Assembly (NCBI GenBank): GCA_029964075.1
Contig: CM057150.1
Location: forward strand, 434,001-498,000
Length of the DNA: 64,000 nucleotides
DNA from: Patiria pectinifera
Taxonomy: Eukaryota > Echinodermata > Asteroidea > Valvatida > Asterinidae
Direction: 5' to 3'
Shown in pieces: positions 15,601 through 37,600 of this stretch. Positions within the stretch are counted from its first letter, which is position 1, and each line of letters opens with the position of its first letter. A program made the translations under genes and the position numbers. The notes beneath the pieces were generated by a model. That model did not search any database and was not told where the DNA came from. It worked only from the letters and a program-made list of their open reading frames with translations.

Positions 15601-18600
15601 ACTTGCATTTTACTGTACAAAGATTACAAGAGACTTTAGTTTGGATATTTTTATTTTCTTTTTTCCCCAGTTGTACATGTACCAGTTATTCCGCAGTCTA
15701 GCCTACATTCATTCTCTAGGAGTCTGCCATCGAGATATTAAGCCACAGAACTTGCTCTTGGATCCAGAATCAGGGGTACTTAAACTGATAGACTTTGGAA
15801 GGTAGGAATATTTGCAGTGGGATATTTCAGGGGGAATACTAGTGTGATGGAGTAGTTGGAAAGTTGCGGTTTAAGACTGACCCAGATCAAAGGTGACACT
15901 GGTGTTACCAGCTGCCAGGCCTATAGCATGTTATAAAGCCAAACCACACCTGCATTCTCAGTCTTAAATACTTGTTGGGTTTCAAAAAACAAATAAGTAT
16001 GAGAACATTTTGTACCACCTGTCATATTTCTGAAAGCAAAAATGAATGTGTCGAATGTTGTAGAGTGCATTAGTAAATGACAGAATATGACAGTCTGTAC
16101 ACCACAGTTCCATATAGATTGTGGGTGTTTGTTTGGTCTTTGCAAGAATTGTGTTTAAATTCACCCTCTAGAGACCGTTATTTCAATAACCCCAACCACG
16201 GACAACCCTTCAAAATCCAACCGCACGTTTTGTTGGAATCTGTTGGAGCGAGTACTGCACTAGTCTACTGATGATGCTTTACATGGGGTCAGGCATACCA
16301 CCAATAATCAGAGTCCAACAGTTTGGGTGTTGGATTTTGCAAGAATGAGGAAGGTTCCTGGTAACTCACTCCAGGGGGTTAGGGTTAATGTGTTTATGAG
16401 TTTTGATATATGTGTTTGTACAATGTGGTGGTGTTTTTTTTCTGCAGTGCAAAACAACTAGTACCAGGTGAGCCTAATGTATCTTACATCTGCTCAAGGT
16501 ACTACAGAGCACCAGAGCTCATCTTTGGTGCCACAGACTACACATGCAATATAGGTAAGCTAGTAAGTTACTCACATTTCACATGCAATATAGGTAAGCT
16601 AGTAAGTTACACACATTTCACATGCAATATAGGTAAGCTAGTAAGTTACACACATTTCACATGCAATATAGGTAAGCTAGTAAGTTACACACATTTCACA
16701 TGCAATATAGGTAAGCTAGTAAGTTACACACATTTCACATGCAATATAGGTAAGCTAGTAAGTTACACACATTTCACATGCAATATAGGTAAGCTAGTAA
16801 GTTACACACATTTCACATGCAATATAGGTAAGCTAGTAAGTTACACACATTTCACATGCAATATAGGTAAGCTAGTAAGTTACACACATTTCACATGCAA
16901 TATAGGTAAGCTAGTAAGTTACACACATTTCAAACTCGGCATTCTAGAGTCAGGCTGAACTAAATTGTGTTTCAGATCTCAATTATGTTTGACGTTTATT
17001 TTACTTAAACACGAAAGTTGTCAAAAGATCAACTGTTGTAGTCACTCAGTCTAGTCAGTGGTAATATATATAAAGTTTGCGTGACTGAAACTAATTTATT
17101 TGAGTCAATCAAAGTTGTTCCTAATACTTTTGGTTTCAGCGAAGGCCACTTTTGACGTGATACCTGACCACACATTACATGTATTCTGTGCTTTAACTTG
17201 ATGTCATTACACATATTAACTGATACTCAACCAGGCCCAATTTCATAGCGCTGCTTAACAGTAAGCAGAAAACTTATATTAACTATAACAGAAAAAGAAT
17301 GGAGATTTGTTTATTGTTTCATCACCAATGAACCAACTTGTTCCTCAAAGGTAAGCATGCCTATTGGGTGATTACTGCTTACAGTCTCAGGTTGTGTGCT
17401 TAGCATTTACAACTTTGATTTCTTTTATGTGCATAGATGTATGGTCAGCCGGCTGTGTCCTAGCTGAATTACTCCTGGGTCAGCCAATATTTCCTGGGGA
17501 TAGCGGAGTGGATCAACTAGTAGAAATCATCAAGGTTCTAGGCACTCCGTCACGGGACCAAATCCATGAAATGAATCCCAACTATACAGAGTTCAAATTC
17601 CCACAGATAAAACCTCACCCATGGAACAAGGTAAGCACCGACTTAAGGCTATTTCACACAATCGTTTCACCTACATGTACCCAGGTTGATACTTTACAAA
17701 TGACTTGAAATTTGACTTGTGATGGACATGACTGAATCAGTTTTAAGAAACATGTAAAATAGTGTGCCTTTCTTAAAAGCATAAACTCAGCAGATAGTGA
17801 TGCTACAAGAGCGGCACGAGTCTTGCGTACTCAACACTGTATTATATGGCTCATAGCAAGGCAGGTGTGTTACAGAACTGTGGAGAGCTGCTGCCTGATA
17901 AAGAGATGTAGTTGGAATATATCTTGCTTAGGAACAGTAATGCTGAAGATAATACTACAATGTATGTTTCTAGACCACAAGACAACTGATCCCTAACCCT
18001 AACTGACATATTTGTATCCAATATGGTAAGGCCTTGAATATTAAACAATATAGATCTGAATCAAATGAGGTTTTGCCCTTCACCAACATGTAAACACTGT
18101 ATACTCAGTGTGTGACCTCCCGAGTGAAAGTTGGAAAAAATCACTTGGGTGGGACTCGAACCCGAGCTAACGGGATCGGTTGGCTGGTTCGAATCTGATG
18201 TACATAGCAGCGGGTACATCAGATTCGAACCAGCCAACTGATCCTGTTAGCTTGGTGGTCCAGTGGTAAGACATCTGCACTAGAAAGCAGGGGGTCGTGG
18301 GTTCGAGTCCCACCCGAGTGATTTTTTCCAACTTTCACTCGGGAGGTAACACACTGAGTATACAGTGTTTACACGTCGGTGAAGGGCAAAACCTAATTTG
18401 ATTTATATCACCCCGATGCAAAAAACAATTCCGTCTTATAATATAGATCTGCTTTGTGCACAACCCCTGTGCAGGTATTCCGGCCTAGCATTACTTCTGA
18501 TGCCATTGATCTCCGTAGCAAGTTGTAACATTCCTTTATCCCTGTGCAGGTATTCCGGCCTAGCATTACTTCTGATGCCACTGATCTCTGTAGCAAGTTG

Positions 18601-34600: not shown

Positions 34601-37600
34601 TAATCTTTTCATATCCAGTTAGTTTCTAGTTTATAAGCATTCCTACCAGGAAGTTGTAGTTATCCTTGTACACATAGCATGTCCTGAGGTCAATGGTTGG
34701 GGCTAACTCTAGTTATTTAATCTGTTCATATCCAGTTAGTTTCTAGTTTATAAGCATTCCTACCAGGGAAGTTGTAGTTATCCTTGTACACATAGCATGT
34801 CCTGAGGTCAATGGTTGGGGCTAACTCTAGTTATTTAATCTTTTCATATCCAGTTAGTTTCTAGTTTATAAGCATTCCTACCAGGGAAGTTGTAGTTATC
34901 CTTGTACACATAGCATGTCCTGAGATCAATGGTTGGGGCTAACTCTAGTTATTTAATCTGTTCATATCCAGTTAGTTTCTAGTTTATAAGCATTCCTACC
35001 AGGGAAGTTGTAGTTATCCTTGTACACATAGCATGTCCTGAGATCAATGGTTGGTGCTAGGGGATAGAACGTCTCCAATGTGTGATCACTAGTTTGTTGG
35101 ATCTCATCTAGACCAGCTAACGGTTGAAGAGGGTTCTTGGATGTCATTAACATGCCTGGCCGACCTCTCACTTGGATCACATTATTTTCTGAAATGGAAA
35201 AAACAAATCCACATGCTTCACTGTAACTGATGACATATTTTTTTTATGGGTTACTTTATTGGTGATATAATTGGGATTAGAACCTGGTTCACAGCAGTTG
35301 AAGGTGAGGATAATCCCACTGAGCCAACCTGACACCCTGAATGTCTTGTCTCTTACCTCTTGTCCAGCTAGCACTAACGTAGTAGTTGGGTGCCTGTGCT
35401 CTGCTAAGAATCTCAGGGTACTGTGGGCCAAGTAGACTACAAAGTCTGATTAAGGCCATTGTCGTTGTAAAACTGAAAGGAAAGAATTGAAAGAAATAAA
35501 ATAATGTGTTCAATGCCTGTAAAGAATGTACAAGAAGAACTTGACAAAGCAAACCCAGTGAAGCTGATTCTGGTTCGCAACAAATTTTACCCAATTGATT
35601 GAAATGGCTATTTACTGGAAGTATTTCCATGCATCTGGTCTGCACAATGGGCCAGATTGAGCCCATTGTTGGCATTACGGGGTACTCCTATATGAGAGCA
35701 CTGCCAGGCTCTCTTTACTAGAATACAACTGGTCTAATTGACAAGCGACAATCAGCAAGTTAGTGAGTCAGTCAGTTTAAGAGGCCTGTAGACTAACCCC
35801 GCTAAGACTTCAACTCTGCTAGAAGCATGTTGAATAACCATTCAGTGCCTGATCATGCCCACAACTACCATACATGTATGACATTTAAATGTTGGGTTTA
35901 TTCAACATGTCCAACAACATGGTAAGCACTGCTTTTGACTTTTTTCAGTTTACCCACATAAGCAGTGCTGCACAGCTTCTCTGTCATTACTCAATTTCAT
36001 GTCCAACTACATGTACATGTACTATGTACATGTCAGTACACTTCAACAAACTTATTTTAAGAACTGTTTGACCTACTGTTATTTATTCAGCACTTAGCTT
36101 GAATCTGTCACTTTGGCTGAACCTGCTGGTAGGGTTAACACTGACCTGTATCTTTTCATTGAGATGAACTTGTTCACTGTATCATATTGTCGGCACTGTC
36201 TGATAGACTGCTCTACTTTTTGGTCCATATCAGGAATCTCTAGAGAGGTAGTCAGGTCCTGAATCTGGTTGGGCATCTAGGTACAAAAATGAACAAATTA
36301 ACGCTGTGTGCTTTGCCTCTAAATCAAAAGCAGTTACAAATTCTTTACAGGTATTTTAAGAGAACTCAATTAAAACTCCTGACAGGAAAACTGGCACTCT
36401 AGACCGATCAATTAAGCCCACTATGCACGTTGACTGTGTCATGCTGCTTGCTGCTTGTTTCATGAACAAGTGCAAAAAACGTTGGTTTTTTGCCAGACAT
36501 TAGTTGTGCAATGAAAGCTGCAATTGGTCAAGGCTTGAATGTTACGGGGCTTAATCCATTCGTGCGCATCACGAGTTAGATGACGAGGTATGTGGCTACC
36601 CTAATGGATCAGTCACTAGGCGTACAGCTGTGAATTGATGGGTAGTAAAGGGAACCGGGTACCTGACTGAAAAAACACATGGGTACCCAGGTACCTGTTA
36701 AAGAAGCCCAACCCCATATTTCAAATATCGGAGGTTGCTGTTCAGATCTATCATAAAGGTTTGCACAATAATACTGTACATCGGTGCATCAATGGAGCAT
36801 CTTGCTTAGGTGTGTACAGTGAGCTTTGTGGTGAAAACTGCAAGTTTTGCAAGTGTCATAAAGATGAATTATGTTTTGTTTTCCTATGTAGCCTGGCTTT
36901 CAATTTGAACATTCCTATAAACAAATGACATTCACAACCTTTCTTTTTCCGGTTTTGGAACCAGTTTCTGACATCAACGATCGGGTACTCGGGTACCCAG
37001 TTCTTAAACATTAACCCTAACTCCCTAGGCCTTTTTGCTAGGATATAGCCTCAATCCTGCAAAATCCTCCAATTGGCCTCATGGAAAAATAGCATATAGC
37101 CTCAATCCTGCAAATTCCTCCGTTGTTTCTTGAATATGGTTCATGGAGGGGTGACCACTTCCTGAATCCTGCAAAATCCTCCGGCCATGACTGTCAATAG
37201 GCTGAGGCAGAGGCAGTGACATCCTGGAGCAGTGCGGAGGATGTCAAGTATAATCAAGGACTAAATTTATGCACGGCTGAGCATAAACAACACAAGGTCT
37301 GGCCCAAGACCTTGACACAGTGCGTACTCCGAAATCAGCAATGCACTTTGGCCATGTAACCTCAATCCTGCAAATTCCTCCAATTTGCAAAAAGGATTTT
37401 GGAGGATTCAGGGCGGTTAGGGTTAAGAACTTGTGTAACATTCATGTACCTGTCCGTTTCCCATGAGTTTGCTTTTTGTCAACCACAGCGCCTGCTTGAC
37501 ACCTTCCTGTAATGAGACATCATGGGTGAATAAGTAAGCAACGTCATCATGGTAGTGGGGATTCTCAGGTCCAAAATCTACCCTGAAGATAAGAAATAAA

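Follow-up and report, generated by a model that had tools for sequence, protein, structure and literature searches.

Minisatellite-like duplications of exon–intron boundaries, named mirages, have been described in the lancelet globin genes Gb6 and Gb9 in a report whose accessible portion also cites Adh3 (PMC3087553), and another paper adds further lancelet cases in PGBD5 and troponin C (PMC3902484). In human, variable internal tandem repeats occur at exon–intron boundaries; as far as the accessible text of that report goes, these lie in recent segmental duplicates and are tied to new introns by transcripts (PMC2812944). In a window of 64,000 nucleotides from the sea star Patiria pectinifera (assembly GCA_029964075.1, contig CM057150.1, positions 434,001 to 498,000 of the forward strand), repeat finding revealed three tandem arrays spanning splice junctions of the neighbouring genes GSK3 and MRPL37. 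These starfish arrays are the phenomenon already known from lancelets: as in the accessible descriptions of mirages, units of similar length span the exon–intron boundary on the donor or the acceptor side, and copies of the splice signal are present in the units (donors in the arrays that we call A1 and A3, acceptors in A2). With the human repeats they share the character of minisatellites at exon–intron boundaries; neither segmental duplicates nor a link to new introns was seen in the starfish. They differ from the lancelet mirages in having a sea-star host, and the present work adds their frequency, estimated blind and set against an intron control. A degenerate pattern for the sea-star neuropeptide S1 had one match in the genome and its reversed control had none, and 22 contigs look chromosome-sized (15–55 Mb for the 20 with stated lengths), a number in keeping with sea stars; a COX1 search gave no match. 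Mirages are further characterized by regular splicing, length polymorphism and somatic instability; the starfish arrays are known here from one assembly. Our literature searches, which had most subscription papers outside their reach, found no echinoderm case of a mirage, nor did the phrase "mirage minisatellite" turn up in them.

The predicted gene models of GSK3 and MRPL37 are firm, with a match to human GSK3-beta at 2.5e-153 for six exons of the former and to mL37 at 8.4e-60 for exons 2–7 of the latter. Array A1 (16541–16932, plus strand; 39 bp × 10.1, 99% matches) covers the end and the donor of a GSK3 exon placed by protein match at 16448..16554 (plus strand). Each of its units consists of about 14 exon and 25 intron nucleotides and carries a GTAAGC donor. 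Array A2 (18465–19118, plus strand; 75 bp × 8.7, 97% matches) takes in the acceptor of a GSK3 exon further along together with the beginning of that exon, which is likewise placed by protein match at 19075..19261 (plus strand) and has its true start in the last A2 unit; by our own count, a unit holds the acceptor (CAG) and about 48 exon nucleotides. Two other features of the window deserve mention. A 100-bp × 8 array in a GSK3 intron (11760–12571) stops about 105 bp before an exon and does not cross the junction, and at 18115–18420 a fold-back with a tRNA-like half, seen by eye, is perhaps a tRNA-derived short element; the single Rfam match in the window is a tRNA at 18249–18321.

The third array repeats the end and the donor of MRPL37 exon 5, on the minus strand. 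Protein matches place this exon at 35000..35189 and exon 6, the next one past the array and an element inserted in it, at 29281..29426 (both minus strand), with exon-end coordinates that are possibly one base off. The main piece of A3 spans 33896–35059 (minus strand; 118 bp × 9.9, 98% matches), and a remainder of 118 bp × 2.9 (98% matches) lies beyond the inserted element at 29884–30228 (minus strand), so that A3 amounts to about 13 units of 118 bp with a retroelement between its two pieces. The exon part of the 118-nt unit is 57 nt, the true donor follows base 35000 on the minus strand, and in one unit a single base directly before the donor is deleted. The element occupies 30229..33895 (plus strand), flanked by an 8-bp target duplication (30221–30228 and 33896–33903), and therefore entered after A3 had grown. 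It matches GIY-YIG and, below the Pfam cut-off, reverse transcriptase, a pair from which we take it to be Penelope-like. By eye, its last part seems to be tandemly duplicated and the coding region to be divided between two frames.

Searching for a second copy of the 20-base word at each junction within 600 bp, in a test that covered 27 junctions of GSK3 and MRPL37, flagged three, which are exactly those of A1, A2 and A3; the remaining 24 showed no second copy of the word. This bears out a preliminary description of the window, according to which three arrays each repeat an exon end with its splice site, and its count of three junction-spanning arrays among six longer than 100 bp holds if the two 118-bp pieces are taken as one array. 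The same description gave exonic blocks of 39, 75 and 57 nt, all multiples of three, but 39 and 75 are the lengths of whole units, whereas 57 is the exon part of a 118-nt unit. There is no reading-frame rule common to the three arrays: used as an alternative site, a unit of A1 would add an open stretch of 13 residues, the non-final units of A2 would bring in an in-frame TAA, and a unit of A3 would shift the frame and lead to a stop. At none of the three junctions do the homologues contain additional residues; therefore, the gene-proximal copies, that is, the first donor and the last acceptor, would give the normal protein, and they are presumably the ones used. For the regular splicing of mirages, the counterpart here is this protein continuity in homologues only.

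The composition of the units bears on how the arrays arose. Because the units hold intron sequence beside the splice site, the template was genomic DNA rather than spliced RNA, and an RNA-templated origin, as had been proposed, is unlikely with intron sequence in every unit. Among nine A1 units compared, 28 of the 36 pairs are identical and the other 8 differ by one, so similar that they are uninformative on homogenisation at the edges. In A2, a distance table showed that the units beside the true exon stay similar to it and that the rest have a separate set of changes in common; the inner units have been homogenised and the edge has been left out. The escape of edge units from homogenisation, measured here in A2, is also a property of the lancelet globin mirages in the accessible part of their description (PMC3087553). 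Units of A1 and A2 matched only their own locus in genome searches, one of which scored 40 of 679 candidates, and no match to a second allele of either array was found in the one assembly. The units of A2 and A3 also hold stretches found in neither flank. A search for local templates of these stretches revealed no clear one: short matches numbered 0, 1 and 1, and the medians for random sequence were 1, 2 and 1.

To estimate how often junctions carry such repeats, we used exon matches of four protein families picked without regard to repeats. They numbered 295 (61 CCT, 29 dynein, 75 myosin and 130 kinesin), of which we used the 150 whose fetched flanks reached 140 bases or more (54, 29, 45 and 22, respectively), yielding 291 junctions (143 donors and 148 acceptors) predicted with a simple consensus score. 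Outside the CCT genes, the flanks mostly measured 150–300 bases, and a unit that exceeds its flank in length escapes detection, whether at a junction or at a control point; duplicated gene copies in the sample, such as loci L083 and L084, are non-independent. Tandem Repeats Finder alone detected no array over an exon end in the sampled exons, and the direct junction-word test found cases that it had missed. With a 20-base word and up to 4 mismatches, a second copy was present within 250 or 600 bp at 2 of the 291 junctions; with a 50-base word and up to 17 mismatches, at 3. These three are donors; one belongs to a CCT gene and two to myosin genes, of which one is a myosin-X gene. A fourth case, on the acceptor side of the same CCT gene, failed the junction test and was recognized by inspecting an exon and intron hit, an inspection that the controls did not receive; it raises the count to 4/291, and the rate is 1.0–1.4%, without and with this case. 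In the CCT gene, the donor-side repeat is degenerate (donor at 5376 of locus L046, copies near 5560, 5700 and 5841), and the acceptor-side repeat is decayed (locus L047, near 766). Junction-spanning repeats thus recur elsewhere in the genome, on contigs C1, C11 and C18.

Control points were placed in introns, 30–140 bases from the sampled junctions, and scored for a second copy within 250 bp. By the 20-base test, 83 of 3,478 intron points (2.4%) were repeated, and by the 50-base test 87 of 3,447 (2.5%), as compared with 9 and 11, respectively, of 1,127 points in exon interiors. On a denser grid, the 50-base test scored 439 of 16,703 intron points (2.6%), or 1.2% in a founder-weighted rate, for which each repeated point is divided by its copy number; leaving out the four junction loci reduced this to 323 of 16,007 (2.0%; founder-weighted 0.9%). 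Exon-interior points were repeated at 68 of 10,259 positions, and all 68 lie within the four exons that have junction repeats. At the founder-weighted intron rate, 3.4 junction hits are expected with the four loci included (P = 0.44 for at least four) and 2.6 with them excluded (P = 0.48 for at least three and 0.26 for at least four). The frequency at junctions is therefore compatible with that in nearby intron, and neither an enrichment of arrays at exon boundaries nor a mechanism that seeds them there, as had been suggested, is supported by the 291-junction sample; a modest enrichment is possible, as the interval for 4/291 runs from 0.4 to 3.5% and a threefold effect fits within it.

The window itself, which was picked for its arrays, exceeds the blind sample (3/27 versus 4/291; Fisher P = 0.015). 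If every window had 27 junctions, at least three hits would be expected, from the frequency in the sample, in about 62 of 9,587 windows, a figure that is overstated if most windows hold fewer, as expected. Within the window, the chance of at least three junction hits is P = 0.0002 (27 junctions) to 0.003 (gene span only) when the six units are placed at random and P = 0.04 to 0.31 when whole-array lengths are placed, both calculations being post hoc.

We consider it probable that the arrays are mirage-type minisatellites, that is, local tandem duplications that were not aimed at splice sites and that survive because their additional copies end up as intron. A tandem duplication of DNA, at a position independent of splice sites, would have happened to take in a stretch straddling one. 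The founding event may have been the joining of staggered breaks: in mouse cells treated with Cas9 nickases, end joining of breaks with overhangs yields tandem duplications, at times with inserts, according to the accessible text of PMC5730883, and the starfish arrays would resemble these in their founding duplication if break repair was indeed their origin. Copy number would then grow through slippage or unequal exchange. The gene-proximal site would keep joining the normal exons, and the remaining copies would be intron and close to neutral. Duplications wholly within an exon would alter the protein and be removed; their loss, together with the survival of those at junctions, would explain why exon sequence is repeated only in exons with junction repeats. 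The earlier proposal that selection tolerates only junction-preserving arrays fits the distribution of the 68 exon-interior points better than seeding does. Against our preferred account stand the excess of the window over the blind sample and the non-flank stretches in the units of A2 and A3, which simple slippage leaves unexplained.

A transcription- or splicing-linked process, for example, nicks at R-loops, might instead seed duplications at or just after donors. Local repeats are present in 12 of 143 donor-side flanks as opposed to 2 of 148 acceptor-side flanks (P = 0.005, in a comparison made after seeing the data), a difference that persists at 8 versus 1 (P = 0.017) when the count leaves out the loci of the four junction repeats as well as one member of a paralogous pair. 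With these four loci set aside, repeats occur at 305 of 7,831 points on the donor side versus 18 of 8,176 on the acceptor side, and some arrays begin within about 40 bp of the donor. Acceptor sides, however, carry the branch point and the pyrimidine tract, and constraint on these would yield the same asymmetry as would a process acting at intron starts. Given also that junctions do not clearly exceed nearby intron, we regard such seeding as rather unlikely. The related idea that duplications favor sites just downstream of donors through a transcription-linked process, junction mirages being the part that reaches back into the exon, we think unlikely as well; if true, it would mean a standing supply of duplicate splice sites for new introns or isoforms. 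Since the acceptor side of introns has far fewer repeats and yet the sample and the window each contain one acceptor junction with a hit, acceptor hits lie above the acceptor-side intron rate, though the numbers are very small.

That the arrays are functional, with identical tandem donors producing graded GSK3 isoforms with 13-residue inserts, would accord with the open frame of the A1 unit and with its nine further donor words, which are exact copies. Such an insert would sit within the kinase domain, roughly one in two stretches of 13 codons would lack a stop by chance alone, and the copies in A2 and A3 lead to stops or a frame shift; moreover, in the accessible portions of the lancelet reports, mirages reportedly leave splicing undisturbed (PMC3087553, PMC3902484). 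We hold a functional role to be very improbable. An origin of the arrays as assembly artefacts has a precedent in a lancelet mirage that was misassembled in a draft genome, as the accessible text of PMC3087553 relates, but it is highly improbable here, with substitutions that distinguish the units, a retroelement with its target duplication interrupting one array, and the further cases on contigs C1, C11 and C18. Introner-like mobile elements would account for a splice site in every unit, but they are scarcely credible as a source when the units contain host exon and those of A1 and A2, rather than being dispersed at many loci, match only their own.

As far as the literature searched goes, mirages in a sea star would extend the distribution of these repeats beyond lancelets. 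Should some 1% of junctions have them, extrapolation gives many hundreds to thousands in a genome of this size. They would cause errors in gene models and serve as natural tests of spliceosome choice between sites of identical sequence, and they may be raw material for intron gain, as the accessible part of PMC3087553 proposes for the lancelet globins. Two other kinds of repeat were noted in the sampled regions. Introns of eight loci (L042, L047, L067, L069, L075, L080, L082 and L100) contain a satellite-like unit of 11 bp, ATCACAAGTCC, or variants of it, and a 43-bp unit, repeated 3.7 times, is present in four places (L040, L041 and twice in L046), perhaps within a dispersed element.
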